NCBI GenBank assembly: GCA_028689145.1
Contig: JAQTWT010000003.1
Location: forward strand, 1 to 64,000
Direction: 5' to 3'
DNA from: Gallionella sp.
GTDB lineage: Bacteria > Pseudomonadota > Gammaproteobacteria > Burkholderiales > Gallionellaceae
DNA length: 64,000 nt
The notes below the pieces were generated by a model. It did no database searches. It saw nothing but the letters and a program-made list of their open reading frames with translations, and had not been told where the DNA came from. Position numbers and translations under genes: made by a program. How positions within the stretch are numbered: position 1 is the stretch's first letter; every line of letters begins with the position of its first letter. Shown here in pieces: positions 1 through 18,938 of the stretch.

Positions 1-18
1 ACTCTGGTATTCTTTCAT
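1..18 (-). CDS. Start of IS200-type transposase TnpA (partial)
   Basis: Only ATG AAA GAA TAC CAG AGT (MKEYQS) is inside the window; the gene continues leftward beyond position 1. A GGAG ribosome-binding site sits about 9 bases upstream of the ATG. Many IS200-family Y1 transposases begin with an almost identical MKEYQSLSHT-type sequence, which is the reason for the call. Six residues are not proof. The HUH and catalytic tyrosine motifs that would confirm it lie outside the window. Confidence 0.5.
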
Positions 19-112
19 CGTGAATCTCCATCTCTTAGTCGAGATTACAGATTCACTCTCACCGTGGTATAGGTCAAACCTTTGTGAGTCCCCCGGCATA
101 GCCGGGGGTTTA
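1..112 (-). mobile_element. Edge of an IS200/IS605-like insertion sequence
   Basis: The left edge holds the first six codons of a minus-strand ORF and, upstream of it, a perfect 8-bp hairpin (CCCCCGGC-ATA-GCCGGGGG, 90-108). A subterminal hairpin in front of a small transposase gene is the architecture of the left end of IS200/IS605 elements, which move as single-stranded DNA and leave no inverted terminal repeats. The element boundary on the right is not defined exactly; it probably lies just past the hairpin, before the glycosyltransferase stop at 139. The assignment is inferred from the hairpin plus the ORF start, because the body of the element is outside the window. Confidence 0.55.
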
Positions 113-138
113 CCTCAGTGAATTATAGAGCGCCCGGA

Positions 139-2103
139 TCAGCCTTGCCCAATCTTTCTATATGCCGCCTCCAAAGCAAGCGCACGCACAATGTCAGCGG
201 CTTGCCGAACCGGCTCCATCCAAGATTCACCGAATTTTCGTCCGATGGAGGTCATTGAGGGGAAAAACGGGTTATGGTCGGCACCCAGATTAAAATAATC
301 ATACCCTGAGAATAATCTGATCGTTGGCGCACCCACTGCTGCTGCAATCAACGCTGATGATCCGTCCGTTCCGATCACTAAATCGCATGCTTTCATTAAA
401 GCAGCCGAGGTATCTATATCATCAAAATGGTCAACATTTTCGAAATTCACAATAGATATACCGAATTGCTGTTCGGCTTTTTTTAATTCTTCAGTTACTT
501 CGCCATGCTGCAGGTTAACCCAAATAATATTCGGAATATCGAATAGTGCCTGCCAGAATTCCAGATAAGGATAAAGCGCCCGGCGGCTCAGGGTCAGCAG
601 GCGACCACGCCATGCAATACCAATCACCAATGAGCCATGTTTGAGAGCAAGCTGTTCACGAAAAATATCCACTTTTTTCGGGTCTGGCAGGAGAAACTGG
701 TGATGCAGCGGGAAAGACTCCAAATTCGGCCGCACAATAGGCAGCAAGCCGCCAATGGCAATTTGCCAGTCCAAATCCGCTATATCTGCCTCAGTCAGCG
801 CATCAGCCCCGCTGCGAAATTCTATTTTTGGGAAACTTCGCGCAAACAAGGGTTTCAGCTTGGCTTGGCAAACACAAACAATACGCTCAAACCGATTAAG
901 AATATCAGGAAGGCAGCTCGCAAAAAATATTTCGTCGCCGATACCCTGTTCGCGATAAACCAGCAAGGATCGCCCTGTGCTTGGCGTGCCGGTCCACTCC
1001 GCCACCGGAAGATTCGGCTTGCTGCCGCTATCTTTCAGTTGCCAACGAAGCTCCCAATTTTTGTATGCTTCCCTAAGCTGCCCAAGTGCAAAGTGTGTTT
1101 CGCTTAGCGCATAGCGCATTTGCGCATTATCCGGTGATCCTGCCAGAGCCGCATAACCATGCTCGAGCGCGAGATCAGGCCGCCCCGCATTGCGCAAAAA
1201 ACCCGCCAAATGATAATGCAATATGGAATTCTCCGGATCTATGGCAAGGGCCTTATCAAACCAGCCAATCGCGTCACACAAGTCTTCCTGATAAACGGCA
1301 AGCTTGGCAAGGTTGACATAAGGTTCGATATTTTTTGGTGCAAGCGCATTGGCTTTTTCGAATTGCACTTTGGCCGCATCAGGCTCGTCCATATCCATCA
1401 GGATCACACCGTAATCAGTGACTATCTTGGGCAGAAGTTCGCGATGTTCCGGTTTGGCGGAATGTTCCAGCTCGCTGATGATATTTTCGGCCAACTCTCT
1501 GGCTTCGCCAAATGCTCGCGTTAGCCACAAGGAAGAGATGAGATTGACTTTAAAGTTCAATCGATTGCCGGGGGCAATATGTTCAATAGCGCATTTGGCA
1601 ACCTGTACGGCTTCTTGATGACGCGCGTTTGCATTAAGTACCTGATACCAATTGCGGTATGCCATTTCAAATGACGCGTCGAGTTTGCAAGCAGTTTCAA
1701 ATGCCTGCAATGCAGGCTCAAGATGACCTTGTTCGGCCATGATGACACCCATTTCGTTTAGCGCCGCAGAGTGGCCGGGGTTAACTTGCAACAGGTTGGT
1801 CAGTGTTGCAACAGCGGCATCAATCCGGTTGGTAAGTTTGAACACTTTTGATAAACCGTATAAGGCCTCGACATCAGAGCGATTTACGGTCAATGCTTCC
1901 ATAAAATAATGCTCTGCCAATGGCCAGTTCTCAAGCCGTGCAGCAAAATTTGCAGCCAAAATAAGCGCCCGCAGATCGCGCGGCTGTTTGCCCAAATGCG
2001 TTTGAATAAGTTCAAGCGCATTCTTGTCTTTGCCCTGCGCCGAGAGCGAAATTGCTCTCTGAATTAAATTGGTTTGGCGGGCATGCGACATGTGGTTGTT
2101 CAT
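139..2103 (-). CDS. TPR-repeat glycosyltransferase, FlmG-like (copy 1)
   Basis: The N-terminal half (roughly residues 10-350) is a run of tetratricopeptide repeats, visible as repeated 34-residue units such as GHLEPALQAFETACKLDAS and DLCDAIGWFDKALAIDPEN. The C-terminal 280 residues form a GT-B type glycosyltransferase domain (motifs GIGDEIFFASCLPD, VIGIAWRG, CDLVIGTDGSSA). The same TPR-plus-GT layout is found in FlmG of Caulobacter, which binds flagellin through the TPRs and transfers a nonulosonic acid. It is the last gene of the glycan operon that starts next to fliC, so flagellin is the likely acceptor. The track start at 2157 adds 18 residues; the ATG at 2103 is preferred because it aligns exactly with the N-terminus of the adjacent paralogue. 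Function is inferred from architecture and context. Confidence 0.75.
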   Translation of the reverse strand: MNNHMSHARQTNLIQRAISLSAQGKDKNALELIQTHLGKQPRDLRALILAANFAARLENWPLAEHYFMEALTVNRSDVEALYGLSKVFKLTNRIDAAVATLTNLLQVNPGHSAALNEMGVIMAEQGHLEPALQAFETACKLDASFEMAYRNWYQVLNANARHQEAVQVAKCAIEHIAPGNRLNFKVNLISSLWLTRAFGEARELAENIISELEHSAKPEHRELLPKIVTDYGVILMDMDEPDAAKVQFEKANALAPKNIEPYVNLAKLAVYQEDLCDAIGWFDKALAIDPENSILHYHLAGFLRNAGRPDLALEHGYAALAGSPDNAQMRYALSETHFALGQLREAYKNWELRWQLKDSGSKPNLPVAEWTGTPSTGRSLLVYREQGIGDEIFFASCLPDILNRFERIVCVCQAKLKPLFARSFPKIEFRSGADALTEADIADLDWQIAIGGLLPIVRPNLESFPLHHQFLLPDPKKVDIFREQLALKHGSLVIGIAWRGRLLTLSRRALYPYLEFWQALFDIPNIIWVNLQHGEVTEELKKAEQQFGISIVNFENVDHFDDIDTSAALMKACDLVIGTDGSSALIAAAVGAPTIRLFSGYDYFNLGADHNPFFPSMTSIGRKFGESWMEPVRQAADIVRALALEAAYRKIGQG

Positions 2104-2169
2104 AACGGACTGATGAAAAAATTTAATATCCCGCTTGCATATGCAAAGATCATGCAACGAAAACCATGA

Positions 2170-4134
2170 TCACGGCGATTGGTGCACGCGCTGGGCATGC
2201 TCTTCTGCAAGTGTGCGCACAATATCAGCGACTCGCTTAACAGGCACCTCCCAAGTTTCACCAAAGTGGCGCTTGACTGGAATTATGTTGGGGAACCACG
2301 GATCGTGATCCGTACCCATACAGAAAAGATCGACATAGGGGAAAATTCTAAATGTTGGCACCCCTACACCAGCCGCTATAAAAGTTGTGGAAGAGCCCGG
2401 GCCGATAACTATGTCGCAGGCTTTCATTAGTGCTGCAGATGAGTCAAGGTCATCGAAATGATCAACATCGGGAAAATTGATAATACTAACCCCAAAGTCG
2501 CGCTCTGCCTGTTTGATTTCTTCTCCGACATCACCATACTGAAGATTAACCCATACTATATTTTGCAGTTCAAACAGCGGCTTCCAAAACTCGAGTTGCG
2601 GATAAATAGAACGGCGCACAATGTTTTCGACTGAACTCCTCCAGCCAACCCCGACAATCAGTTTGCCGTTATTTTGCGGCAACCGATTACGAAATAACGA
2701 GACTTTTGCCGCATCCGGCATTAATAACTGCTGCAGATTGGGGAAATCCTCGATTCTTTTCCGGAAAATACGAGGCAAACTGCCGATAGGTATCTGGAAC
2801 TCAGGGTTCCCCAAATCTGCCGCTGTGAGATTGCTATCCAAATCACGAAATTCAATTTTTGGAAAACTTCGTGCAAACAGGGTCTTTAACTTGGGGTGGC
2901 AAATGCAAACAATATGCTCGAATCGTCCAAGCAGATCCGGCAGGCAGGTGGCAAATACAACTTCGTCACCCAAGCCCTGTTCTTTATAAACAAATATGGA
3001 TCGCCCAAACCCCGGAGATCCTGTCCATTCCGGAATCGCGAGCTGAGATTTAACCCCGCCTTCACGCCGCGCCCAGCGTAACTCATAGTTCTCGTAAGCC
3101 TGATCCAAGTGTCCAAGCGCAAACTGCGTCATGCCTAGATAGCAGCGCAATTCAGGGTTGGCAGGTGATTGAACGACGGCGGATTGCATATAAGGCAATG
3201 CCAGTTCCGGACGCCCTGCATCGCGCAGCACAGTGCCCAAATGAAGGTGCAATTCCGCATTACCCGGTGCAATTTTTAGCGCTTCATCAAACCAATGAAT
3301 AGCCTGCAATAGATCCTCCACATACCAATAGGATTTTGCGAGGTTAATATAAGGCTCGATATTTTCCGGGTCCAGCGAAATCGCTTTTCTGAATTGTTCC
3401 TGGGCTGGTTCAACCTCATTTAGCTCCATGAATACGATGCCATAATGGGAATAAGCTCGCGCTAAAAGCTTCCGATACTGCAGGCCATTCAACGGTGTCA
3501 GTTCGGCGATAATATCTTCCGCCGCCAATCGTCCTTCTTGAATCGCACCCGATTTAGAGAGACAAACAACAAGGTCAACCTTGAAGGTGTAACGATAATC
3601 AGTAGTGCTATTTTGAATAGCCAATTTGGCGGCCAGCGCTGCCTCCTCATATCGGCTGCAAGTAATCAATGCGGCATATAGATTGCGATATCCCAACTCA
3701 AACGAAGGGGCAAGTTGAACACATTTGTCGAATGTTTGTAGAGCAGAAGCCATGTCACCTTGCCCGACAAGCAGCACCCCGCGTTCATTGAGAACGTTGA
3801 CGTTATCCGGTTCAAGCTCGAGTATTCTGGATAACATCCCATCTGCTTCATCCAGACGATTTAAAACTTTAAGCACCTCAAACAACTTGTAAAGAACGTT
3901 AATATCAACCTTGTTAATAGCCAGCATACCCGCAAAGCACTTTTCAGCAAGTGCCCAGTCCTCCAGCCGCATAGCAAGCATTCCGGCCAAATTGAGCGCA
4001 TCAATATCGTCCGGCGATTGGTGCAAATGTGCTTGAATAACCGTTAGGGCTTGCTTGTCGTTACCCTGGGCAGAAAGTCTGCTTGCTTTCCGGATAGCCG
4101 CGTTCATGTGTGGCTGGTCACTGCGCTTTACCAT
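2170..4134 (-). CDS. TPR-repeat glycosyltransferase, FlmG-like (copy 2)
   Basis: This is a paralogue of the downstream gene: it has the same N-terminal TPR array (about residues 10-350) and the same C-terminal glycosyltransferase domain, with motifs GLGDEVVFATCLPDLL and CDIVIGPGSSTTFIAAGVG. The two proteins are about half identical over the GT domain, so they arose by tandem duplication and have since diverged. The TPR parts differ more, which could mean different protein acceptors or different sites. A 105-base gap separates it from the methyltransferase upstream, the largest spacing in this operon. Likely role: transfer of a nonulosonic acid or a following sugar to flagellin. Not a Maf-type transferase; no Maf gene is present in the window. 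Confidence 0.75.
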   Translation of the reverse strand: MVKRSDQPHMNAAIRKASRLSAQGNDKQALTVIQAHLHQSPDDIDALNLAGMLAMRLEDWALAEKCFAGMLAINKVDINVLYKLFEVLKVLNRLDEADGMLSRILELEPDNVNVLNERGVLLVGQGDMASALQTFDKCVQLAPSFELGYRNLYAALITCSRYEEAALAAKLAIQNSTTDYRYTFKVDLVVCLSKSGAIQEGRLAAEDIIAELTPLNGLQYRKLLARAYSHYGIVFMELNEVEPAQEQFRKAISLDPENIEPYINLAKSYWYVEDLLQAIHWFDEALKIAPGNAELHLHLGTVLRDAGRPELALPYMQSAVVQSPANPELRCYLGMTQFALGHLDQAYENYELRWARREGGVKSQLAIPEWTGSPGFGRSIFVYKEQGLGDEVVFATCLPDLLGRFEHIVCICHPKLKTLFARSFPKIEFRDLDSNLTAADLGNPEFQIPIGSLPRIFRKRIEDFPNLQQLLMPDAAKVSLFRNRLPQNNGKLIVGVGWRSSVENIVRRSIYPQLEFWKPLFELQNIVWVNLQYGDVGEEIKQAERDFGVSIINFPDVDHFDDLDSSAALMKACDIVIGPGSSTTFIAAGVGVPTFRIFPYVDLFCMGTDHDPWFPNIIPVKRHFGETWEVPVKRVADIVRTLAEEHAQRVHQSP

Positions 4135-4239: not shown

Positions 4240-4905
4240 CTATACCTTCTCTGCTACCAGATTCCACGAGGCAAACAAATGCATTGTTTGAGGAATTGCT
4301 GAAACAATCTGCTTGTGCTCCAACCGGACTATCGCCATACCGGCCTCCGAGAACAATTCGATCAGATGTTCCTTGCTTGAAAAATGCACATTACCGACAC
4401 CGGCAAATTGCCCCTCTGTAATATTAGCCCGTGTATATTCATCAATCCGTTCTCCCAAGCCAAAGCCGGAGTGTTCAACCGAGAACCAATCAACACCGAT
4501 ATATTTGGCACCCGGCCTCATGGCAGCACATAGATTTTTAAGTCCCAGCTTAATCGCACTGGTATCGTTATGCGTCATTGAACTCCGATCAATCACAAGA
4601 TCGTACATGTCCGAATGTTTTTGGGAAATAAAATCGCCGGTTTTCAGTCTGTTTTTAAGTTCAGGATATTGTTCACGAACGCGCGCCGCGATTGAGTCGC
4701 TGCCTTCGATCCCATAGTAGTCCACGCCGATTGAGAGAAAGAAGGGAATATTAGCGCCAGCACCGAACCCGATCTCCAATACTTTGGTGCTGGACGAGAA
4801 TGGTTTCGCATAGCGATGCATATAACTGACCAAGTCAGACCACGGCCAAATAGAGATATTGGATTGTTCGCGATAGACCTGCTCCCACTGTGGTGAGAAA
4901 GACAT
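4240..4905 (-). CDS. Class I SAM-dependent methyltransferase
   Basis: 221 residues with the glycine-rich SAM-binding motif I, VLEIGFGAGANIPFF, at about residue 42, and an acidic residue ending the second strand (YYGIEGSD). The rest fits a Rossmann-like methyltransferase without an obvious subfamily. The ATG follows directly on the stop codon of the upstream TylF-like gene (TAAATG), so translation is coupled. Placed in the flagellin glycan operon, it most likely methylates the sugar or a sugar-nucleotide precursor. The substrate cannot be read from the sequence. Confidence 0.75.
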   Translation of the reverse strand: MSFSPQWEQVYREQSNISIWPWSDLVSYMHRYAKPFSSSTKVLEIGFGAGANIPFFLSIGVDYYGIEGSDSIAARVREQYPELKNRLKTGDFISQKHSDMYDLVIDRSSMTHNDTSAIKLGLKNLCAAMRPGAKYIGVDWFSVEHSGFGLGERIDEYTRANITEGQFAGVGNVHFSSKEHLIELFSEAGMAIVRLEHKQIVSAIPQTMHLFASWNLVAEKV

Positions 4906-5592
4906 TTAGAGCACCATATAACTAATGTTGGGTTCATACTCGAAGCAGCGTAGCTCACAATCCCTAATATTTAGCTGTTCAAGCATAGCCTTGGTTTCGC
5001 CGGGCCAATCCGCATTGTTGACCTCATCAAAAGCAAGCACTGCTCCTTTGGGCATTCTCGGCAACAATGTCTTTAATGCGGTGACAGTCGGTTCATAAAC
5101 ATCAAAGTCGAGATATAAAAGGGACACCAGTAGATGTGGATTTTTTTCAAGATATTCGGGTATTTTCAAATTCGCATCACCCTGAACCAGATCGATTTTT
5201 GGAATATGGTTCAAGAATCTGTTTTCATCGTATTCCTTCACACACAAATTCAATTCATCGTAGATATTGTAAGCCTCCGAGAACATCCCTGCTTTTACAT
5301 CTGATCGGTTTAATACATCAATGGGCGCAACATGGGGAAAACCTGCAAAAGTGTCGAACCCGATAATTTTTCGATGATAATTATAGGGTTCAAGAGTAGT
5401 TGACAACTTTGCCCAAGCCATTACTCCACCGCCATGATGTACACCGCATTCAACGATACTGCCTTTTACCGGCAACTGCAGTTTAAATATTTCTGTTTGC
5501 GCCAGAAATCTTGCAATATTTTGACGGCGTACATATTTTGAAAAATTGGCTAATTTTTTATCCACCGCACAAGAACTTTCTTCGAAAATCAT
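4906..5592 (-). CDS. TylF/MycF-family sugar O-methyltransferase
   Basis: The protein has the family signature IVECGVHHGGGVMAWAKL near residue 50, followed by GFDTFAGFP and later LLYLDFDVYEPTVTALK and GAVLAFDEVNN, which are the metal- and SAM-binding landmarks of macrocin O-methyltransferase relatives. Members methylate hydroxyls of deoxysugars or of polysaccharide residues. The start codon overlaps the stop of wbqC by one base (TAATG). With the methyltransferase just downstream it suggests that the flagellar glycan carries methyl groups. The exact acceptor hydroxyl is unknown. Confidence 0.8.
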   Translation of the reverse strand: MIFEESSCAVDKKLANFSKYVRRQNIARFLAQTEIFKLQLPVKGSIVECGVHHGGGVMAWAKLSTTLEPYNYHRKIIGFDTFAGFPHVAPIDVLNRSDVKAGMFSEAYNIYDELNLCVKEYDENRFLNHIPKIDLVQGDANLKIPEYLEKNPHLLVSLLYLDFDVYEPTVTALKTLLPRMPKGAVLAFDEVNNADWPGETKAMLEQLNIRDCELRCFEYEPNISYMVL

Positions 5593-6302
5593 TATTTATC
5601 TCCCTGATAATTGCGAATATTCCCCGACATCAGAATCTCCAAGGATTCTGGTCCAACATTAAATAAAAGATCTATGACCGACATATATGGTTCAAAATCC
5701 CCATGAAGCTGCGGGTACACCGGGTGATGGTAATCCTGAAAATATACTTTTATCCCGCAGTCTGAAAATGACTCCACATTTGCATAATTGCTGCCCTGCG
5801 CCCCAAAGATGTAGCTGGTAGCACCAAGCTTCTTGCACATATCCAGCACCAAGTCGGATTTGTTGCCCTGAAAATCATGCGCGCTTGCTGTGTCAATGGG
5901 CACATTGATACCGAGTGATTTAAGCCCGAATTCGAGTGTCGCAAAATTCAAATCGGCCAAATAAGTGTATGTCCGGCTTGCCAATATAGCCTCCAGCTCA
6001 CCTATATAGTCGGAATAAAACGGCGCTTTGCGATAAGCCAGATCAATAGATTTGAAATGCTTTCTGTTCCAGCCATTGTTTACAATTTTGATGTCGCAGA
6101 GCTTTTTTTCAAAGTGACCCTTAGACTCAACGGGTACCGATAACCAGATCGGGCCGGCATTGGTTTTAATCTTGTTGCGGTTATTAAAGTCTTTAGTTTG
6201 ATATTGTGCAATATCAAAAATACAAAATCGTTCGGCGAGCGCTATCTTGTGAAAAAGACCGAGCCAAGGCATATATACGGGTTGATGAGCAGTTAAAATC
6301 AT
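5592..6302 (-). CDS. WbqC-like family protein
   Basis: The start MILTAHQPVYMPWLGLFHK is the hallmark of the WbqC-like family, found scattered in O-antigen and other surface-glycan clusters. Full length for the family at 236 residues. A biochemical role has not been firmly established; members often sit beside DegT-type aminotransferases and acyltransferases, as here, which hints at N-acylation of an amino sugar. The ATG overlaps the stop of the upstream aminotransferase by four bases (ATGA), showing tight coupling. No signal peptide or membrane segment is seen, so it should be cytoplasmic. Confidence 0.8.
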   Translation of the reverse strand: MILTAHQPVYMPWLGLFHKIALAERFCIFDIAQYQTKDFNNRNKIKTNAGPIWLSVPVESKGHFEKKLCDIKIVNNGWNRKHFKSIDLAYRKAPFYSDYIGELEAILASRTYTYLADLNFATLEFGLKSLGINVPIDTASAHDFQGNKSDLVLDMCKKLGATSYIFGAQGSNYANVESFSDCGIKVYFQDYHHPVYPQLHGDFEPYMSVIDLLFNVGPESLEILMSGNIRNYQGDK

Positions 6303-7312
6303 GCGAAATCCCCGGCGATACCTGCCACTCTTCGAGCATCACCAGCCGCGAGCGTGGGATAAATGGGCAGTGAAACGGTGGTGCTAGCAAGCCTGCTTGC
6401 CATCGGATATTTCTCCGGCTCGTCGAGCAACTCCCATTGCTCTACGGGAACAATGGCGCGAATACCATTGTTTTGCAACGTCTCGATCAGCCGACTCGGG
6501 GCGGTGCAGCGCATTACCGCACGGTAGCGCACTGGCTGCATCGACGCTGTTAATGGCCCAAGCAGTTCCAAACCGGCATTGGCATAGATTCCAAACAGAC
6601 GTTCGCGCTGCTCCACAAATTCGGGCAGCTTGGCAAGCTGCACCCTGCCCACGGCCGCTTGCATATCCGTCATCTGGAAGTTGAAACGAAGCCTTGTATC
6701 CTTGCGCGAGTCAAATTGACGGTAGTCACGAACCCTCTCAATCAATGCACGGTCACGACTGATTACTGCGCCACCCTGTCCACCGGTGGTTATCAGCTTG
6801 GTGGCGTAGAAGGAACAAATACCCAATTCACCGCGCAACCCGATTCGTTCGCCACCAACTCTTGCACCGAGCGCCTGCGCCAAATCTTCAATAAGCAGGT
6901 AATCGCGGGCATTTGGCAAATCGACCGGAATGCCAAACATCGAGGGCGCAATCAAAATATCAACACCCGCTTTTGCAGCGGCAGCCATATCGACATTGGG
7001 GCCATTTTCTTCGCAGTCGAGATATGCGCATTTTCCTTCAACCAGCCCCACGGCATTGCGCAATGCCGCGCAGGCATAAACCGGCAAGCCTATCAGCTTA
7101 TTCTTTCCATCCAATGCCCACAAAGCCAAAAAAAGTGCGGCTGAACCACTCGACACAGCTATCGCGTGTCCGTCCGGGAGACCCAGAAAACGGCATAATT
7201 CATTCTCAAACTCCTCAACTTCCGGTCCCTGTGCAACCCAACCGCTTGCCAGTACTCTGGCAGCGGCAGCTTGTTCTTCCATTCCAAGCGTTGGAAGATT
7301 ATGCGGGATCAT
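6299..7312 (-). CDS. DegT/DnrJ/EryC1/StrS-family aminotransferase
   Basis: PLP-dependent sugar aminotransferase of about 337 residues. The PLP-binding lysine is in CSFYATKLITTGGQGG, followed by the family's typical arginine-rich segment (FNFQMTDMQAAVGRVQLAKL). Such enzymes convert a keto-sugar nucleotide to an amino sugar. It is a second aminotransferase in the operon, distinct from PseC, so another amino group may be installed on the glycan or on a linked sugar. The track start (TTG, 7324) adds four residues; the ATG at 7312, preceded by GAGGGTGG, is preferred. It overlaps the end of the acyltransferase gene by 14 bases. Confidence 0.8.
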   Translation of the reverse strand: MIPHNLPTLGMEEQAAAARVLASGWVAQGPEVEEFENELCRFLGLPDGHAIAVSSGSAALFLALWALDGKNKLIGLPVYACAALRNAVGLVEGKCAYLDCEENGPNVDMAAAAKAGVDILIAPSMFGIPVDLPNARDYLLIEDLAQALGARVGGERIGLRGELGICSFYATKLITTGGQGGAVISRDRALIERVRDYRQFDSRKDTRLRFNFQMTDMQAAVGRVQLAKLPEFVEQRERLFGIYANAGLELLGPLTASMQPVRYRAVMRCTAPSRLIETLQNNGIRAIVPVEQWELLDEPEKYPMASRLASTTVSLPIYPTLAAGDARRVAGIAGDFA

Positions 7313-7772
7313 GCCCACCCTCAAGCCGATTCAGGTAATACCCGGATTTGACGACCGCCGGATTTCCAACTACCAGCGAATATGGCGGCACCTCGACGGC
7401 ACCGACTATCGTTCCTGCTGCAATGACCGAGTGATGCCCGATTCGTGCTCCTCCTTTGATGACTGAATGTGAGCCAACAAATACGTGGTTTTCGATCAAA
7501 ATATCCCGGCGCTCTACTTCCTCAGACAAGCCGATGCATTTCTTGTGAGAGTCAGCGCAATTAATGGTGACAAAAGACGCAATATCGCAATTGTCGCCAA
7601 TACTGACTCGCGCGCCCTTTGCATTTACTTCTGAAAAACCGCCAATATAGACATCCGTACCGATTTCCGGATCACCGACTACCCAAACTAATGGGTGAAA
7701 ACGGTTTGAGGGAAAAGTAGTCAGCCTGGTAAACCACTCCTGAAGCGCTGCATCATCGGGCTGGTCATTCAT
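7299..7772 (-). CDS. Left-handed beta-helix (hexapeptide-repeat) acyltransferase
   Basis: Residues 30-140 show repeated hexapeptide units, e.g. IGTDVYIGGFSEVNAKGARVS and VFVGSHSVIKGGARIGHHSV, ending in PPYSLVVGNPAVVKSG, the classic end of trimeric hexapeptide acetyltransferases of sugars. It probably N- or O-acetylates a sugar nucleotide. This matters because the usual PseH (GNAT fold) of pseudaminic acid synthesis is absent from the operon; this enzyme could replace it, or could act with the neighbouring DegT aminotransferase as a VioA/VioB-like pair. The ATG overlaps the pseI stop by four bases. Confidence 0.8.
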   Translation of the reverse strand: MNDQPDDAALQEWFTRLTTFPSNRFHPLVWVVGDPEIGTDVYIGGFSEVNAKGARVSIGDNCDIASFVTINCADSHKKCIGLSEEVERRDILIENHVFVGSHSVIKGGARIGHHSVIAAGTIVGAVEVPPYSLVVGNPAVVKSGYYLNRLEGGHDPA

Positions 7773-8836
7773 ACGCGCATATCTCCAAGTGATAGCCGCT
7801 CCCCTTTTTTAATGTCACGAGTCGCGGTTAATCCAAGTACTTTACCGATCATATCCGGAGACAGACCGCCACCCGGTCGCCGCAAACCCGTATTGGCGCT
7901 ATCGAACGTTGTACCAAGAGCTATGTCACGCAATGCAACCACACTCCGTCGCGCGACCAATCGCATTGCTTGCTCGGCTTTTGTGGGCTGCACCAATGGA
8001 CTACCCAGAATGATGTCCGCTATTCGAATATTATTAATCCACTCGGCAAGCCCCGCAGGCTCTTCTGAAAACCAGTGATCCGGCCCCGGCATATCCTTTC
8101 CGAGTGTGAAATGCTTCTCGAAAACCCTGGCACCCCGGGAGACGGCCAGCGCAGCCGCTAGCGCACCTTGGGTATGGTCGGAAAAACCCACCAGCAAACC
8201 GGGAAATGCTTGTTGCAGCGTGGTGAGCTTTGCGATGTTCACGTCCTCGGGAGGTGTCGGATACTGCGAAGTACACAGCAACAGCGCCACAGGATAACCA
8301 TCGAACCACCCTACCGCATCAAGCGCTTGGTGAACTTCCGCCAGATCGCTCATACCGCACGAGAGAATCAGCGGCAACTTGCTTCCGACATAGCTTCGCA
8401 ACAGCGGCAGGTTGGTAAAATCATCCGAACCGATTTTAATGGCGGGCACGCCGATTTCCATTAGCAGCTCAAGATCGCTAAGGTTTTGCGGCGTTGAAAA
8501 AAAAGTAATACCGACGGCTTCACAATACGCTTTAATTTCTCGCCAACTTCCCGCGGGCAGCTCATAGCGCCGGAACATCCCCAGCATTGACTCTGTAACA
8601 GCCTTTCCCTGCGACTGGTAAGTAAAGGTCTGATCCGGATCGCCGCAAAACTCTTCAGCCTTGAATGTCTGAAATTTGACCGCATCAGCACCGGCTGCCT
8701 TGGCTGCCTCTATCATCCGCTTGGCAATGGCGAGGTCGCCGTTATGATTAATGCCGACCTCGGCAATACAATAGGGGGGGCTGCTAACGCCGATGCTTCG
8801 TCCAGCGATTTGGAATGTTCCTGGTTGGTTTGGCAT
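7769..8836 (-). CDS. pseI: Pseudaminic acid synthase (NeuB family)
   Basis: NeuB-type synthase: an N-terminal TIM barrel (YCIAEVGINHNGDLAIAKRM near residue 22, FQTFKAEEF, ILSCGMSDLAEV, GFSDHTQG) and a C-terminal antifreeze-like SAF domain (about residues 290-355, RSVVALRDIALGTTF). It condenses phosphoenolpyruvate with the 6-deoxy-altrose derivative released by PseG to give a nonulosonic acid. Neighbouring pseB, pseC, pseF and pseG support pseudaminic rather than legionaminic or sialic acid. At 355 residues it is family-typical. A 32-base gap separates it from pseG. Confidence 0.88.
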   Translation of the reverse strand: MPNQPGTFQIAGRSIGVSSPPYCIAEVGINHNGDLAIAKRMIEAAKAAGADAVKFQTFKAEEFCGDPDQTFTYQSQGKAVTESMLGMFRRYELPAGSWREIKAYCEAVGITFFSTPQNLSDLELLMEIGVPAIKIGSDDFTNLPLLRSYVGSKLPLILSCGMSDLAEVHQALDAVGWFDGYPVALLLCTSQYPTPPEDVNIAKLTTLQQAFPGLLVGFSDHTQGALAAALAVSRGARVFEKHFTLGKDMPGPDHWFSEEPAGLAEWINNIRIADIILGSPLVQPTKAEQAMRLVARRSVVALRDIALGTTFDSANTGLRRPGGGLSPDMIGKVLGLTATRDIKKGERLSLGDMRV

Positions 8837-8868
8837 GATTGACCGCTTTTTTAGTTTTGAATCATTAG

Positions 8869-9936
8869 TTAGGCCAACAGCAGAATATCTGCCACCCGCT
8901 CTGCACCCAGAGCATCGACAAGCGCCAATGCCTTTTCAGACATGCCGGCAAGCTGCTGGCGGTTCAGCGAGCACAGCGCATCCGCATAATTTTCTGCTTG
9001 CAGGTCATGACACCGACCGAGATTATGTACAACGCCTGCGTTATCCAATGCCTGCGCAATCAATACCTGATTCTCCGCAAGCACTGTAACCAAAGCCGGC
9101 ACACCGAGCGCGCAACGTTCCCAATTACTGGACCCACCTGCCCCGATAGCAAGATCGGCCCGAGCAATTAATGCCGGCATGTAATCAATCTGGCAGTGAT
9201 ACCCCCAATGAAGCGCCTCGCACTTTTCAATTATTGCTGCATTATTCGGGTTCGATGTGCCTGTGACCACATCGACACCGTCGGCTTTTCCGTAAAGCTC
9301 GATACCTCGCATGGCTTTCAGCGTTTCCCCCTGATCATCGCCAGCGGTAAAGAAAACCAGAATCCTCCTTAAGTCATGCAGCCGAGTCTCGATCCGATCC
9401 CGCATATCTTTGAAATCTTTTTTCAGCAATGCATAACCGGAGCCCAGCAGGATTTTACACTGCACCGGCACAAGCCCCGCGTAACGCTGGCTGCCGTCTG
9501 CCGAATAGTTTTGATCCAACAATAGATCGCAGTCATGTTTACGATTGGCAAGATCATCAATCACCATCAATTTTCCAACATGCGAACGCAGACGCATTTC
9601 CCATTCGATACTCAGCCCATAATGGTCCACTACCAACCAATCCGGTTTTTTGCCGCCAAATGCCTCAATGCTCTGGTCAGCGTCTTCTGCCTGCGAAACG
9701 CCCAGCCATGTGGCATAGCCAACATCAGTTATTGCATTACCCGTCGTCGGTGCAGGCAACACCGAGACCGGCATGCCTTTCTGTTGAAGCAGCGCAATCA
9801 TATGACCGGCATGCTCGCGACAAATAAATTGTATCTGCACGCCGCGTCCGCGTAGCGCTTCCGCCAATGTCAGACAGCGCATAAGATGGCCGGCACCGAT
9901 GCGCGCCGACGAATCGACGCGGAAAAAAACCTTCAT
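8869..9936 (-). CDS. pseG: UDP-2,4-diacetamido-2,4,6-trideoxy-beta-L-altropyranose hydrolase
   Basis: The N-terminus VDSSARIGAGHLMRCLTLAE is characteristic of PseG, a GT-B fold enzyme related to MurG that removes UDP from the altrose intermediate. Further support comes from DWLVVDHYGL, VIDDLANRKHDCDLLLDQN and the C-terminal nucleotide-binding stretch ADLAIGAGGSSNWERCALG. Length (355) is typical. The start overlaps the PIG-L stop by four bases. It supplies the substrate of PseI, encoded immediately downstream. Confidence 0.88.
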   Translation of the reverse strand: MKVFFRVDSSARIGAGHLMRCLTLAEALRGRGVQIQFICREHAGHMIALLQQKGMPVSVLPAPTTGNAITDVGYATWLGVSQAEDADQSIEAFGGKKPDWLVVDHYGLSIEWEMRLRSHVGKLMVIDDLANRKHDCDLLLDQNYSADGSQRYAGLVPVQCKILLGSGYALLKKDFKDMRDRIETRLHDLRRILVFFTAGDDQGETLKAMRGIELYGKADGVDVVTGTSNPNNAAIIEKCEALHWGYHCQIDYMPALIARADLAIGAGGSSNWERCALGVPALVTVLAENQVLIAQALDNAGVVHNLGRCHDLQAENYADALCSLNRQQLAGMSEKALALVDALGAERVADILLLA

Positions 9937-10613
9937 GTCAGTTGCCGGCCCAATACGAATGCCTCCGCGGCTTCCGCGCCCACAGTGGCACCGCGCCAGC
10001 GGGCCAGATGCTCGACACCCTGCCTTGAGCGCGGATGCGGCCAGTCACGCAGTTCGGCCGCATAGGCATCCAGTGCGGCGAACTTACGATCCAAGGTATC
10101 CGAAATATCCACAAACCAGTTCGGGGCAAAAAACGGCGCACTGCCAGACAACTGCCATTCGGTGCTGGACGGCACCTCGAAACACAGCAGCGTCTTCACC
10201 GGATGGCCGCACTGCGGCCGGCAGGCGGTTGCTACCGCTTCATGCACGCGCCGATGGTCAACATTTAAATCTCCCGAGTGGTGAGTCAAGATCGTATCGG
10301 GCCGGTACAGATCAATTAGCCTCTCCACCTCCCTGATGATATCGAGAAGAGCGACAGCATCCATACGGTTATCCGGAAAATCGCCAAAAGACAAAGAATT
10401 GATATGCAGAATATCGCAGGATTTTTGGGCAGCTTCACGGCGTGCGTCTAAAACACCCCTGCCCAATTTATCTTCACCGGTGCGCGAGGACACACCATCG
10501 GCCAAAAAAGCCGCATGAATAATTGCACCCTGATTTGCCAGCTTGGCGATGGTGCCGCCACAGCCTAGAACCTCGTCGTCAGGGTGTGCTGCAATAATTA
10601 GGATTGATTTCAT
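9933..10613 (-). CDS. PIG-L/LmbE-family deacetylase
   Basis: Zinc-dependent N-deacetylase of 226 residues with the two signature motifs: AAHPDDEVLGCGG at residues 8-20 and HHSGDLNVDHRRVHEA at about 110, which together hold the metal ligands and the catalytic aspartate. Members deacetylate GlcNAc-type sugars or nonulosonic acid derivatives. Its place inside the pse operon suggests that an N-acetyl group is removed, probably to allow a different N-acyl group. It is not part of the canonical six-enzyme pseudaminic pathway. The start overlaps the methylase stop by four bases. Confidence 0.82.
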   Translation of the reverse strand: MKSILIIAAHPDDEVLGCGGTIAKLANQGAIIHAAFLADGVSSRTGEDKLGRGVLDARREAAQKSCDILHINSLSFGDFPDNRMDAVALLDIIREVERLIDLYRPDTILTHHSGDLNVDHRRVHEAVATACRPQCGHPVKTLLCFEVPSSTEWQLSGSAPFFAPNWFVDISDTLDRKFAALDAYAAELRDWPHPRSRQGVEHLARWRGATVGAEAAEAFVLGRQLT

Positions 10614-11242
10614 CTTTTTTCCATTAAGAACCAGGTGATGTCGTCGTCAGGAAAAGCCGGATCCCTGCGATAGACAAAGCCATAATCAACGAGAGTTAGA
10701 TCAGGATACTTTTCCAGCATTTCACCCGCAAAATCCCTTTTGAACAAGCGATCTGCATGGCCACGATATGAAATCGACACCGGCGATGGGTTGTAATATT
10801 CGCCCAAAAGAATAAAACGTTTCGATGCTTGATATAATTTCTCGTAAACAATAGGCAGCATGTCGGGATGAATGTGAATAAGCACACCCCGTATCAATGA
10901 TATATCCACTTGATCGGATACCTGATATTCGAAAATTGAACCTTCAAACACATTACTTTCACCAATCAAATTCGCCAGCAGCTTTGCGGCAGCAGGGTTA
11001 ATTTCAACTGCCTTCAGATGGATATTTGGATAAAGAAGCTGTAGCGCCTTTAAATTCATCCCTATGTTCGCCCCGAACTCAAGGCAGGAAGAAATACGAC
11101 CTGCTTGTTTTAGTGCTTTCGAAAGCAGGTTCAGGTTTGAAGCCAGCATCTGTGCGCCGTCGTTGCGGTAAATATACTCGGTACCGAATTCTCCAGCCCA
11201 GAACGCTTCTTGTGGCGTTGCATAATTATCCGCAGCTGTCAT
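10610..11242 (-). CDS. Pseudaminic acid biosynthesis-associated methylase
   Basis: 210 residues beginning with the family-typical TPQEAFWAGEFGTEYIYRN, followed by a SAM-binding motif CLEFGANIGMNLKAL at about residue 57. This matches the small methyltransferase family that occurs almost only beside pse genes. It likely methylates the nonulosonic acid or its precursor. Three bases separate it from the pseF stop. Together with two further methyltransferases at the end of the operon, three methyl-transfer steps are possible. Confidence 0.8.
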   Translation of the reverse strand: MTAADNYATPQEAFWAGEFGTEYIYRNDGAQMLASNLNLLSKALKQAGRISSCLEFGANIGMNLKALQLLYPNIHLKAVEINPAAAKLLANLIGESNVFEGSIFEYQVSDQVDISLIRGVLIHIHPDMLPIVYEKLYQASKRFILLGEYYNPSPVSISYRGHADRLFKRDFAGEMLEKYPDLTLVDYGFVYRRDPAFPDDDITWFLMEKR

Positions 11243-11245
11243 AAC

Positions 11246-11935
11246 CTAAAGCACCCCCACTTGATTAAAAATCAGTTCCGCCCTTATCCAGTCGTCCTGT
11301 GTATCGATATCCTGGACGCGCCAGCGTGGAATCACAACCGGTATGGAGTGGCGATCAAAAATGCGTCTTCCCTCGATCCAGGCTGAATGCCGTCCCCAAT
11401 AAAATTGCCCGGCATCGTGTAGCGCCATTGGCAAATCCTGCGAGCGCGTCAGGAAATGTTCCGGATAGAACATTTCTATACCACCATCGCTATTCTGCTT
11501 GAATGAGCGAAAGATCGGCGCGGCAAAATCGGTCACGGTAAACGCATATGACCACTCACCCGATTCCAAGGCCACTAAGCCCCGCTTGAGATCATCCGCT
11601 TGAATAAACGGTGCAGTAGCATAGATGCAGCACACCGCACCCACATCAAAACCTTGTTTTAACGCCCATTGTGCTGCATGCGCAACAACCTCGGTTGTTC
11701 CTGCATAGTCATCCGACAGTTCCGGCGGACGCATGAAAGGCACCTCCGCACCCCATTGTTTCGCCACTTCGGCAATCTCGGCATCATCAGTGGAAACGAT
11801 GATGCGATCAAACAAGCCAGAAGCTTTTGCCGCTTCAATCGACCAAGCTATCATGGGCTTGCCGCAGAAGTCCTTGATATTCTTGCGCGGGATGCGTTTG
11901 CTGCCGCCACGCGCGGGAATAACGGCAATATTCAT
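11246..11935 (-). CDS. pseF: CMP-pseudaminic acid cytidylyltransferase
   Basis: The N-terminus MNIAVIPARGGSKRIPRKNI is the nucleotide-binding loop of the acylneuraminate cytidylyltransferase family. KPMIAWSIEAA, DDAEIAEVA and DIDTQDDW follow as expected. It activates the nonulosonic acid with CTP for transfer. The track ORF begins at a TTG (12049) inside pseC; the ATG at 11935 is the real start because it matches the family N-terminus and forms an ATGA overlap with the pseC stop. That leaves 229 residues, the normal length. Confidence 0.88.
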   Translation of the reverse strand: MNIAVIPARGGSKRIPRKNIKDFCGKPMIAWSIEAAKASGLFDRIIVSTDDAEIAEVAKQWGAEVPFMRPPELSDDYAGTTEVVAHAAQWALKQGFDVGAVCCIYATAPFIQADDLKRGLVALESGEWSYAFTVTDFAAPIFRSFKQNSDGGIEMFYPEHFLTRSQDLPMALHDAGQFYWGRHSAWIEGRRIFDRHSIPVVIPRWRVQDIDTQDDWIRAELIFNQVGVL

Positions 11936-13095
11936 GCGCTTACAGCCTCGCGCAAGGCTACCGCCACCCGGTCTTGCTGCGCTTCCATCAGGGTCGCATA
12001 AATCGGCAAACTGATCGCCTCGGTGTAATATCGCTCTGCCTCCGGACAATATCCGGCCTTGAAGCCCATTTGTTCGTAATATGGCTGTCTGTACACGGGG
12101 ATGTAGTGCAGATTCACGCCGATACCTGCCGCGCGCATCGCATTAAAAACTTCGCGCTGCGTCTTGCCGATCTCTCCCTGTTTCAACCGAATGACATACA
12201 AGTGATATCCGGAATAGCTGTCTGCATGTTGCCTGTGCGTAATCACCGGTAGCTCTGCCAATAACTCCTCATAACGCTTGGCAATAGCATGGCGTCTGGC
12301 AACGAAGTCGTCCAGCCGCTGCATTTGACTCAAGCCTAAGGCGGCATGTATATCGGTCATGCGGTAATTAAAACCCAAGGCTGTCTGCTGATAAAACCAA
12401 AGCTCTCCGGTTGCCCGAGGAAGCATATCCGCCACGTCACTGGTAATGCCGTGGCTGCGCAATAATTTCATACGCTCGGCTAATTGCGCGTCGTTGGTCA
12501 GCGCCATACCTCCCTCTCCGGCGGTGATGATCTTGACCGGATGAAAGCTGAATACGCTGATGTCGCTGTAGCGTCCGCTGCCGATAGGTTCTCCGCGGTA
12601 TTTCCCGCCTACGGCATGCGAAGCATCCTCAATGATTTTGAAACCATAACGCTGGCTTAATGCGTGGATACCTGCCATATCGCACGACTGGCCGCACAAG
12701 TGCACCGGGATGATAATTTTTGGCAAACAACCGGACTGTTCCGCTTGCGCCAGCTTTTCCGACAGGCGCTCCACGCTCATGTTGTAGGAATGCGGGTCGA
12801 TATCCACAAAATCGACCTGTGCACCGCAATACAACGCGCAATTAGCACTGGCCACAAAGGTGATTGGACTGGTCCAGACCACATCTCCCGCACCTGCGCC
12901 AAGCGCCAGACAAGCAACATGCAGTGCACTGGTAGCGCTATTGAGCGCCACTGCATGCTCGGCACCGCAATATGTTGCAATCGCTTTTTCAAATGCCGGT
13001 ACGGCAGGTCCCTGAGTAAGAAAATCCGAGCGCAACACATCCACTACAGCCTGAATGTCGGCATCGGAGATATCCTGGCGACCGTAAGGAATCAT
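11932..13095 (-). CDS. pseC: UDP-4-amino-4,6-dideoxy-N-acetyl-beta-L-altrosamine transaminase
   Basis: DegT-family aminotransferase starting MIPYGRQDISDADIQAVVDV, the typical PseC start. Landmarks are NSATSALHVACLALG, ISVFSFHPVKIITAGEGG with the PLP lysine, and FNYRMTDIHAALGLSQ. It transaminates the keto product of PseB. The track start at 13128 would overlap pseB; the ATG at 13095 lies 10 bases after the pseB stop and matches family N-termini. Length is 387 residues, normal for the family. Confidence 0.88.
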   Translation of the reverse strand: MIPYGRQDISDADIQAVVDVLRSDFLTQGPAVPAFEKAIATYCGAEHAVALNSATSALHVACLALGAGAGDVVWTSPITFVASANCALYCGAQVDFVDIDPHSYNMSVERLSEKLAQAEQSGCLPKIIIPVHLCGQSCDMAGIHALSQRYGFKIIEDASHAVGGKYRGEPIGSGRYSDISVFSFHPVKIITAGEGGMALTNDAQLAERMKLLRSHGITSDVADMLPRATGELWFYQQTALGFNYRMTDIHAALGLSQMQRLDDFVARRHAIAKRYEELLAELPVITHRQHADSYSGYHLYVIRLKQGEIGKTQREVFNAMRAAGIGVNLHYIPVYRQPYYEQMGFKAGYCPEAERYYTEAISLPIYATLMEAQQDRVAVALREAVSA

Positions 13096-13105
13096 GCCCA
13101 AATAT

Positions 13106-14116
13106 TCAAGTACTACGTGTTGAATCAACTTCCGCCTGAATCAATCCGCGCAACTCTTCTACAGTCAGAAAACGATGGTTGCTGCCGCTGTTATAGCAGA
13201 AGCCGGGCTCAACCAGCTTGGCACCCGTTTTTGCACAGTAGTCTGCAATGCTATAGTCTCCGCCAAACGGCAGAATAGCGTAATAACTACCCATGTCTAC
13301 AGTATTGAGGCTGTCGCTTGATGTGACCATTTCCTCATGTATCTTTTCGCCCGGGCGCACCCCTACCACTTGCTGCCTGCATTCCGGCCCGATAGCCATG
13401 GCCACGTCAGTGATGCGATAAGAAGGGATTTTCGGAACCAGTATCTCACCGCCCATGGCGTTATCGATCGCCCATAAAACCATCTCGACACCTTCGCGCA
13501 AGCTGATATTGAAGCGTGTCATGGCAGGGTCGGTTATCGGCAATACCCCGCTTGCCCGTTTTTCAAGAAAAAATGGAATAACCGAGCCGCGGCTGCACAT
13601 CACGTTGCCGTATCGCACCACACTGAAACGAAGATCGCGGCTTCCCTTGATGTTGTTGGCAGCGACGAACAGCTTATCTGAACACAGCTTGGTCGCGCCG
13701 TAGAGATTGATCGGCGCTGCAGCTTTATCGGTAGACAGCGCAACCACCCGCTGCACACCCGAATCAAGACAGGCTTCGATCAGGTTTTGCGCACCGATCA
13801 CATTGGTCTTGATATACTCAAACGGGTTGTATTCGGCAGTCGGAACCTGCTTGAGCGCGGCGGCATGAATCACCACATCAATACCTTCCATTGCACGGCG
13901 CAAGCGTGACTGATCGCGAACATCGCCAATAAAAAATCTAATGTTTTTATTTGGGCTACCGGAAAGCTGCTGTGACATCTCATGTTGCTTGAGTTCGTCA
14001 CGCGAATAAACCACCAGACGCTTAATATCCGGATATTTATTCAGAATAGTTCTAACAAAAGCCTTACCGAAGGAGCCTGTACCACCGGTGATAAGAAGTG
14101 ATTTATTGTTGAGCAT
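13106..14116 (-). CDS. pseB: UDP-N-acetylglucosamine 4,6-dehydratase (inverting)
   Basis: Short-chain dehydrogenase of the FlaA1/PseB type: the Rossmann motif LLITGGTGSFGKAFVRTIL at residues 7-25, YSRDELKQHEM, then AALKQVPTAEYNPFE and STDKAAAPINLYGATK with the catalytic residues. It starts pseudaminic acid synthesis from UDP-GlcNAc by dehydration and C5 epimerisation. It is the first biosynthetic gene after fliC, 60 bases downstream, with a GGAAG site before the ATG; no terminator is visible in that gap, so transcripts may read through from fliC. Confidence 0.9.
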   Translation of the reverse strand: MLNNKSLLITGGTGSFGKAFVRTILNKYPDIKRLVVYSRDELKQHEMSQQLSGSPNKNIRFFIGDVRDQSRLRRAMEGIDVVIHAAALKQVPTAEYNPFEYIKTNVIGAQNLIEACLDSGVQRVVALSTDKAAAPINLYGATKLCSDKLFVAANNIKGSRDLRFSVVRYGNVMCSRGSVIPFFLEKRASGVLPITDPAMTRFNISLREGVEMVLWAIDNAMGGEILVPKIPSYRITDVAMAIGPECRQQVVGVRPGEKIHEEMVTSSDSLNTVDMGSYYAILPFGGDYSIADYCAKTGAKLVEPGFCYNSGSNHRFLTVEELRGLIQAEVDSTRST

Positions 14117-14176: not shown

Positions 14177-15658
14177 TTACTTTAGCAACTGCAACACAGT
14201 ATTAGGCAAAGCGTTCGCCTGCGCCAGCATCGCCGTACCCGCCTGTTGCAATATCTGGTTGCGGGTGAGGTTGGCGGTTTCCAGCGCAAAGTCCGCATCG
14301 CGGATGCGCGAGCGCGAAGCCGACAGGTTCTCCGAAGCGGTCTTCAGGTTCGCCACCGTTGATTCGAAACGCGATTGCACCGCACCGTATTTCGCCCGCA
14401 TGCTATTAACCGACTGCAGCGCCCCGTCCACCAGCGCGATCGTGCGATTTGCCGCATCCACGTTGCCCACGTCCACCTGGCTGGTCTTTTGCAGCGAGGC
14501 CGAAACCGCTGTCGCGGTGTTGCCCCAGTCGGTGGTGTTACCGGCAACCAGGCCGAACGACTTGTCCGAATCCAGCGTCAGCTGGCCCGTGACGTACCCG
14601 AGAATTGTCGTTGCCGTCGCAACACCGCCTATCGACACGGTGCCGGTCACGGTGGAGATTTTGATATCCTCGCCCGACGCGTTGAGCAGCGTGATCCCCG
14701 TTCCCGCCGCATTAACTTTGGCGGTCACCCCGGTCTTCGCGCTGGCATCGTTGATCGCGTTAATCCCGGCGGCGAGGCCGTCCGCATTGACGGCGGTGCC
14801 GACGCTAAAATTGATATTGACCGCCGAGGTGGTGTTGTTCGAATAGAGATTGAACGAATAACTGGTATTCGCGGCATAACCGGTTAAATCAACTTGTGTT
14901 TTGGTGGTCGCCGTCACGCCCGTTGTTGAGGCTTTGTCGTTGATCGCCTTGGCGACCGTTTTGGCGGAAGCGCTGGCGGCGTAGGTGATCGTGGCGGAGC
15001 CGAGCGCGCCGTTGATGGTCAGGCTGCCGCCGGCAACGCGGCCTGCCGCCTGGATGGTAGCAGTCGAACCCAGCATGGCCGACGAGCTGCCCAGCGTCAG
15101 ATCACCCAGCGTGCTGGTGGTAGTGGCCGCCAAAGCGCCCATGCGATAACTACCATAATTGTCGGTACGGAAATTGGTGGTGCTCACCGTGATCACTTCG
15201 CCTGCGTTCGCGCCAACCTGATAGCTGTTCGAGCTTGATCCATCAAGCAACTGCAGGCCGTTAAAGGAGGTGGTAGCGGCGATACGGTCGAGTTCGGAGG
15301 CCAGCTGGCTGACTTCGTTGTTCAGCGCGGCGCGGTCGGCGGCAGAGTTGGTCGCGTTGGCCGATTGCACCGCCAGTTCGCGGATACGCTGCAGGATGCT
15401 GCTGGCCGAACCCAGCGCGCCTTCGCCGGTCTGCGCCAGCGAGATGCCGTCGTTGGCATTGCGCGCCGCCTGGTCGATACCGCGAATTTGCGAAGTGAAA
15501 CGCTCGGAAATCGCCAGACCCGCCGCGTCGTCCTTGGCGGTATTGATACGCAACCCCGAGGACAGCCGCTGCAAAGATGTCGCCAAAGCCAGACCCGACG
15601 ATGTAAGATTCCGCTGTGCATTCAACGACGGAATATTAGTAAGAATCTGTGTTGTCAT
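14177..15658 (-). CDS. fliC: Flagellin
   Basis: The conserved N-terminal D0/D1 region (residues 1-150; [37 protein letters not shown]) and C-terminal D1/D0 region (about 400-493; [20 protein letters not shown], ending NTVLQLLK) flank a variable Thr/Ser/Ala-rich centre of about 250 residues that would be surface-exposed and available for glycosylation. The centre carries a hook-IN-like stretch around [19 protein letters not shown]. The AGGA ribosome-binding site lies about 10 bases before the ATG. It is a single flagellin gene heading a nonulosonic-acid operon, strongly suggesting glycosylated filaments. No other flagellar genes are in the window. Confidence 0.95.
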
Positions 15659-15947: not shown

Positions 15948-16357
15948 GCAGCCTCAACGCCATAGCCAATGACCACCGCGCGTTTATGACAAAAAGCGCA
16001 AGTAATTTAACCAGTTCCCCGTATTTCCAGCCCATCAGACAAGTACCGACAGCCGAATTCACCATAATCAGTCAAACACCAATACCGGCCCAGCATCAAA
16101 CAAGGCACTATTTGCTTATTTTTCTCAAAACCAAGCGGCAAATTCATTTACCATGCACAACCGCTTGAAATACATGCTAAAAATCATCCCATATGCAACG
16201 AGAAGCAACCATTCCGGGAACAATAATAATTTGGCCCGCATGCTTTAATCAGCCGGAACATACCGCTGGTTCTAACAACCCCCCCGATTATCGGTTGATG
16301 ATTTACACAGATGGGGCAAGTTCAATAAAGTAAACACAACATAACTTGGGAGTAGCA

Positions 16358-16876
16358 ATGCCAACCAAACAACGACAAACCGGCCTGACGATGATCGAAC
16401 TAATGATTGTCGTCACCATTGCCGCCATACTGGCTGGCATAGCCGCACCATCGTTCAGCGATTTGATCAACAACACGCGCCAGGCTTCCGCCATGTCGCA
16501 GCTCACCAACGATTTAAATCGTGCCCGAAGCGAGGCGATCAAACGTAACCGGCGCGTACTGATTTGCGTGCGCGGCACCGATACAGCCTGCGGAACGGGC
16601 ACTAACTGGCAAAACGGCTGGCTGGTCTGTTATGACGAAGATCAGAATGGCACATGCGATGCCACTTCCACCACCAATCCGAATCCGATTGTGGTACACC
16701 GCGCCATTAATTCGCGCCTTACTCTGACCGGCAGCGCCGCAACAATCTACTTCAACCCCAGCGGTACCCAAGGGGCGGGCGGCGCTGCAACCCTCACGCT
16801 TGCCGGCAACTGGGGCGGAGCAGTCACCAACGTCGCCACCATTGCCGCTACCGGCAACACATCCAGGACACCATAG
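16358..16876 (+). CDS. fimT: Type IV pilus minor pseudopilin, FimT/GspH family
   Basis: Class III signal peptide with the prepilin motif QTGLTMIELMIVV (cleavage after the glycine, glutamate at mature position 5) and one hydrophobic helix, followed by a 140-residue C-terminal domain with ARSEAIKRNRRVLIC, typical of FimT/GspH. The track start (TTG, 16346) adds four residues; the ATG at 16358 follows a GGGAG site at good spacing. First gene of the minor pilin operon, which primes pilus assembly in the inner membrane and cooperates with PilY1. Confidence 0.85.
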   Translation: MPTKQRQTGLTMIELMIVVTIAAILAGIAAPSFSDLINNTRQASAMSQLTNDLNRARSEAIKRNRRVLICVRGTDTACGTGTNWQNGWLVCYDEDQNGTCDATSTTNPNPIVVHRAINSRLTLTGSAATIYFNPSGTQGAGGAATLTLAGNWGGAVTNVATIAATGNTSRTP

Positions 16877-16886
16877 GATTCAACCA

Positions 16887-17432: not shown

Positions 17433-17436
17433 CACC

Positions 17437-18447: not shown

Positions 18448-18449
18448 GG

Positions 18450-18929: not shown

Positions 18930-18938
18930 GAGCGCATC

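Follow-up and report, generated by a model that had tools for sequence, protein, structure and literature searches.

Descriptions of FlmG-class flagellin glycosyltransferases in the literature we found come only from Caulobacter. In Caulobacter crescentus, FlmG (CCNA_01524) consists of an N-terminal half made of tetratricopeptide repeats (TPRs) and a C-terminal GT-B glycosyltransferase (GT) half. It binds flagellins via the TPR part and glycosylates all six Caulobacter flagellins, in a genome with a pseudaminic-type pathway and without Maf (PMC7591256). By locus number, flmG is situated apart from most flm genes. Paired transferases occur in other systems. Maf-1 and Maf-2 are paralogous flagellin nonulosonate transferases, one of them with a TPR acceptor domain; they belong, however, to another GT family (PF01973), and the TPR part of Maf-1 is C-terminal. 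Fgt1 and Fgt2 of Pseudomonas syringae are encoded by two genes adjoining fliC, but the glycan they attach is rhamnose-based; the likeness to the locus reported here lies in gene arrangement.

Here we analyse two tandem genes, GT1 and GT2, found in a 64,000-nucleotide stretch of Gallionella sp. DNA (GenBank assembly GCA_028689145.1, contig JAQTWT010000003.1, positions 1 to 64,000; "the window" denotes this whole stretch). Sequence, predicted fold and genomic context support their products as FlmG-class flagellin transferases. They share the domain order of FlmG, a pseudaminic-type pathway and a genome without Maf. Unlike flmG, they are present as two tandem copies inside a run of fliC and pse genes, and their donor is probably not plain pseudaminic acid.

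Two TPR and GT-B proteins of putative FlmG class

Both reading frames are intact and located on the minus strand, 66 bases apart (Table 1). GT1 was first listed from a TTG; the ATG further downstream gives a protein of the same length as GT2. The paralogues share 50% identity across 641 aligned residues (45% in the TPR part, 55% in the GT part). Pfam detected many TPRs at residues ~1-350, about ten in each protein. Glyco_transf_9 was matched only weakly, in GT1 (E 0.0019, below cut-off), and no PDB sequence matched the GT part. Since Pfam and PDB sequence searches named TPRs only, the GT half was judged by fold and tree.

Alignment-based AlphaFold models of the two proteins are confident (mean pLDDT 92.1 and 91.7); in each, a TPR superhelix leads into two Rossmann-like halves. 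Their best whole-length Foldseek matches are SPINDLY and O-GlcNAc transferase, both TPR plus GT-B enzymes. Global TM-scores stay at 0.25-0.4, low values that arise when two halves are set at different angles; the fold evidence thus speaks for architecture and not for close kinship. Both proteins display the FlmG arrangement of N-terminal TPRs and C-terminal GT-B within a single chain of ~600 residues. No third full copy was found in the genome (G000; 2.74 Mb in 23 contigs, 96.7% complete), where the remaining matches span TPRs only.

We wondered to which enzymes the GT halves are related. GT domains of GT1 and GT2 served as queries against 101 relatives and 399 genomes of the phylum, and a wider alignment, run against a named genome collection, yielded 77 FlmG-like loci. 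Two maximum-likelihood GT-domain trees, in which FlmG of C. crescentus NA1000 is represented by Caulobacter sp. relatives with the expected gene neighbourhood, place GT1 and GT2 in one clade with enzymes of Caulobacter, Phenylobacterium and Hyphomonadaceae, among them near relatives of FlmG, and split this clade from generic TPR-GTs (97/99 and 100/99). GT-domain identity to the Caulobacteraceae-type relatives is about 30-35%. The clade is marked by W-x-S followed by R, generic enzymes by W-x-G followed mostly by D. GT1 has the G of the generic motif, yet it retains the R and its position in the clade, so that neither protein belongs to the generic group.

Most named Caulobacteraceae members of the clade adjoin flagellin genes, and flagellins beside two members of one group (f77) are related to FljK, FljL and FljM. 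A flagellin gene occurs within ~10 kb in 38 of the 77 FlmG-like loci and in 3 of 20 generic TPR-GT loci (Fisher p 0.006), a rough comparison, as the samples come from different collections with many short contigs. FlmG-like genes are thus widespread in Betaproteobacteria and beyond, with flagellin close by in half of the loci.

The window conforms to this pattern. A run of genes on a single strand (minus) comprises, from 5' to 3', fliC, pseB, pseC, pseF, a gene for a Pse-associated methylase, a PIG-L deacetylase gene, pseG, and genes for a NeuB-family synthase, a hexapeptide acyltransferase, a second DegT, WbqC, a TylF-like protein and a methyltransferase, and then GT2 and GT1. The two transferase genes are thereby linked to both flagellin and CMP-nonulosonate genes. 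Many neighbours overlap or almost touch, with gaps of 105 bases before GT2 and 66 before GT1. The run, GT1 included, is probably co-transcribed; promoter and terminator sites in the operon are no commoner than in shuffled sequence, and the scan does not distinguish one transcript from several. Besides FliC of the operon, the genome encodes a short orphan flagellin, alone on contig C5; a third match, on contig C7, is FlgL-like. Maf domain PF01973 has no match in GT1, GT2 or anywhere in the genome, while the same search scores 109 bits in another genome (G080).

The original prediction had described two diverged TPR plus GT-B paralogues of FlmG type, lying in a betaproteobacterial flagellin glycan operon with no Maf visible, and had named GT-domain phylogeny as a means of refuting it. 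The phylogeny instead grouped both proteins with flagellin-linked enzymes (100/99), the betaproteobacterial assignment is supported by Sulfuricella as the nearest named relative, and the remaining claims of that description agree with the data above.

An old duplication followed by reciprocal losses

GT1 and GT2 have different closest relatives. GT2 groups with the single enzymes of two congeners, G015 and G016 (100/98; 72% identity), and GT1 with the single enzyme of Sulfuricella sp. L100 (100/97; 58% identity). This pairing indicates that the tandem pair is older than those lineages. GT2 type is thus found alone in the congeners and GT1 type alone in Sulfuricella, in all three cases with fliC alongside: the duplication is old and the losses are reciprocal. 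The run of pse genes, transferase and fliC recurs in all three. No GT2-type enzyme was found elsewhere in the Sulfuricella assembly, which may be incomplete. Between the transferase and a second fliC of G016 lies degraded sequence that is closest to the C-terminus of GT1 (score 111 versus 101 and 95). With ~43 residues, this is suggestive of a GT1-type remnant, not proof of it. Such lineages provide natural single-enzyme comparisons for acceptor and donor choice.

The second fliC of the congeners, located behind the transferase, is preceded by a sigma-28-like promoter (TAAAGTTT...GCCGATAA; L067 16950-17310 and L068 14880-15060). It was not found in the window genome.

Similar arrangements exist elsewhere. 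Chitinilyticum piscinae (L115), like Sulfuricella, has pse genes, transferase and fliC in one run, but each has a single transferase, and Sulfuricella has a true PseI. Solimicrobium silvestre (L127) carries an adjacent FlmG-class pair beside fliC and nonulosonate genes; this pair arose by independent duplication, as its two copies are each other's nearest relatives in the tree. FlmG-like genes are often tandem or multi-modular: at least two modules are present in 42 of the 77 loci, and some Azospirillum proteins beside flagellin reach ~2000 residues. Open reading frames of ~1700-2500 residues that encode two to four TPR-GT modules and frequently adjoin a flagellin gene were seen in L101, L103, L104 and L108-L118 (Azospirillum and others).

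Donor pathway and a rare gene cassette

PseB, PseC, PseG and PseF of the operon score above their cut-offs, but the NeuB-family enzyme falls under both NnaB and PseI cut-offs. In the congeners and Sulfuricella, true PseI is present (504-510 bits, cut-off 340). The congeners further possess a PseG-PseH fusion, whose PseH part, at 60-62 bits, falls short of the PseH cut-off of 93. No PseH over cut-off was detected in the window genome, and PseG of the window lacks the fused PseH part. The canonical pseudaminic acid set (PseB, C, H, G, I and F, all over cut-off) is therefore incomplete, with PseI and PseH failing.

In their place, within 4240-11242, stands a cassette of NeuB-like synthase, hexapeptide acyltransferase, DegT, WbqC, TylF, methyltransferase and PIG-L. 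Its NeuB-like gene, acyltransferase, DegT, WbqC, methyltransferase and PIG-L recur, mostly together, in five further betaproteobacterial loci: Noviherbaspirillum L120, L121/L223, L220, L221 and L222; DegT of the cassette was not found in the last two. The NeuB type of the window is rare, occurring in 5 of 399 genomes of the order, that of the window included. PseB, PseC and PseF are 83-88% identical to their G016 counterparts. The simplest reading is that the middle of the operon was swapped while fliC, pseBCF and the transferases were retained. The pathway genes suggest a donor that is related to pseudaminic acid but altered, and with PseH and true PseI missing and the rare cassette in place, the glycan probably differs from plain pseudaminic acid. 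Retention of the transferases under a swapped cassette would make donor tolerance of FlmG enzymes directly testable.

We also considered that the NeuB-like synthase might simply substitute for PseI. This was dropped, as in L220 and L221 a PseI-like gene is found together with NeuB of the window type; their two synthase genes suggest either two nonulosonic acids or a two-step modification. The operon itself has one NeuB and one PseF, which points to one CMP-sugar and argues against two sugars for two transferases. A second NeuB-type cluster, with genes for a radical SAM protein, a TviC-like epimerase and an AAC(3)-like acetyltransferase, is located ~150 kb away (L214, G000:C19:155000-174999) and is a possible source of sugar. 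A further-reaching proposal, to which we give little credence, is that GT1, with its changed site at S500, adapted to the new donor after exchange of the cassette, and that the pair now deals with a previously undescribed nonulosonic acid on flagellin.

Systems of this kind are already known; reciprocal loss, the frequency of tandem arrangement and the exchanged cassette are additions to the original prediction, and the latter two make the locus worth specialist attention.

Proposed function and rival explanations

We consider it fairly probable that both proteins are cytoplasmic FlmG-class O-glycosyltransferases which add one nonulosonic acid to FliC, GT1 acting on the same flagellin with the same sugar as GT2. 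The N-terminal TPR superhelix would hold unexported FliC. Still before export, the C-terminal GT-B part would move the nonulosonic acid from a CMP-sugar, which products of the upstream genes would make, onto several Ser/Thr residues of this flagellin. Flagellin binding by TPRs and transfer to Ser/Thr are here predicted from the genes and from analogy with FlmG. As descendants of the old tandem duplication, GT2 would represent the conserved main enzyme of the lineage and GT1 a diverged second copy, probably serving extra sites or higher occupancy and not adding a second sugar.

Several observations weigh against this interpretation. The trees contain a stand-in for C. crescentus FlmG, and the orphan flagellin and the adjacent type IV pilin cluster are other conceivable acceptors. 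GT2 keeps all invariant positions of the clade and GT1 all but one, which favours the interpretation. The exception speaks against it: S500 (GT2 numbering), invariant in the other 40 clade members including the Sulfuricella orthologue, is replaced by G in GT1. The end branch of GT1 is also about twice as long as that of L100 (0.38 versus 0.19). Such changes mean that GT1 could be heading for loss.

That GT1 is a redundant copy, decaying or already weak, with GT2 doing the work, is the most serious rival, although we regard it as unlikely. Apart from S500G and the fast branch, it is favoured by loss of GT1 type in both congeners, with the remnant in G016, by private changes P368A, S452G, Y533H, T608A and W613F at conserved positions, all retained in L100, and by the multicopy element that landed ~12 bases behind the stop codon. 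On the other side, the 654-codon frame is intact and its fold is predicted with high confidence. GT1 departs from the clade at 2 of 36 conserved positions, other members at up to 6, so that it is no outlier, and generic TPR-GTs normally have G at position 500. Synonymous sites between GT1 and L100 are saturated, which limits the use of dN/dS, but at a dN of 0.33 this saturation means that selection held GT1 for long. GT1 is thus probably active but diverged.

A slightly smaller chance is given to partition of sites or substrates, in which the two enzymes modify different Ser/Thr residues of FliC, or FliC is the substrate of only one and the short orphan flagellin that of the other. According to PMC13317340 (citing Unay et al. 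2024), Maf-1 and Maf-2 are unlike each other in how they bind flagellin and in which serine sites they choose, and the window genome does combine two flagellins with two transferases. Transferase number does not track flagellin number, however: the congeners have three flagellins and one intact transferase, and FlmG alone modifies six (PMC7591256). Faster divergence of the TPR half, expected if the paralogues had specialised for acceptors, was looked for and not seen. Both halves diverged in step (45/55% TPR/GT identity between the paralogues, 68/76% between GT2 and G016, 53/64% between GT1 and L100), so that nothing points to a change specific to acceptor choice. Partition of sites may still apply, but the division of labour suggested originally, by sites or by first and second sugar, found no positive support and is not favoured over redundancy; each copy stands alone beside fliC somewhere.

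A split into first and second sugar, with one enzyme attaching the nonulosonic acid and the other extending it, is decidedly unlikely without a sugar supplied from beyond the operon. Precedents exist: Aeromonas Fgi-1 is needed for the larger heteroglycan, only a single Pse derivative being left on flagellin without it (PMC7874193), and P. syringae has a trisaccharide along with Fgt1 and Fgt2 (PMC3927599). The operon, however, holds a single CMP-sugar pathway and no other complete nucleotide-sugar pathway was seen in it; an extending enzyme would need no flagellin-binding TPR half, and either paralogue type can be the sole copy beside fliC. Least probable of all is action of one or both enzymes on type IV pilins or surface polysaccharide: generic TPR-GTs are common in the superfamily, mostly away from flagellin, and a minor-pilin/PilY1 cluster begins at 16346, but tree position and operon oppose it, the cluster is on the opposite strand and the run of pse genes, transferase and fliC recurs in G015, G016 and L100.

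Features of the window

Coordinates of the operon genes and of the adjoining element are given in Table 1.

Table 1. Features at the start of the window, with the evidence for each assignment.
Feature	Position	Strand	Evidence and remarks
End of multicopy element	1..126		Hairpin and ORF start MKEYQS..., IS200/IS605-like by eye; ~12 bases from GT1 stop, at contig end
GT1, putative TPR + GT-B flagellin glycosyltransferase, FlmG class, 654 aa	139..2103	-	ATG at 2103, TTG at 2157 possible; groups with Sulfuricella L100 (100/97); S500G
GT2, putative TPR + GT-B flagellin glycosyltransferase, FlmG class, 654 aa	2170..4134	-	Groups with congeners G015 and G016 (100/98)
SAM-dependent methyltransferase of glycan cassette	4240..4905	-	Homologues in same cassette of L120, L121, L220-L223
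TylF-like methyltransferase	4906..5592	-	PF05711; also in L220
WbqC-family protein	5592..6302	-	PF08889, 239 bits
Second DegT/DnrJ/EryC1 aminotransferase, not PseC	6299..7324	-	Profile searches and cassette comparison
Hexapeptide-repeat acyltransferase, candidate PseH replacement	7299..7772	-	Profile searches and cassette comparison
NeuB-family nonulosonate synthase	7769..8836	-	NnaB 343 bits, PseI 241 bits, both below cut-off
PseG, UDP-sugar hydrolase, without fused PseH of congeners	8869..9936	-	290 bits, cut-off 153.6
PIG-L family de-N-acetylase	9933..10613	-	PF02585
Pseudaminic-acid-associated methylase	10610..11242	-	TIGR03587, 292 bits, cut-off 112
PseF, CMP-pseudaminic acid synthetase	11246..11935	-	331 bits, cut-off 206; ORF listed from TTG at 12049
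PseC aminotransferase	11932..13128	-	560 bits, cut-off 424
PseB dehydratase	13106..14116	-	507 bits, cut-off 408
FliC flagellin, 493 aa, first gene of run, likely acceptor	14177..15658	-	ORF list and flagellin search

The multicopy element matches nine places over ~125 bases at 100%, its own place in the window included. Most of these are at contig ends, and the element probably breaks the assembly at the window start. On the other side of the operon, a type IV pilus minor pilin cluster (GspH/FimT-like, PilW, PilY1) occupies positions 16346-23153, in divergent orientation to the fliC operon.

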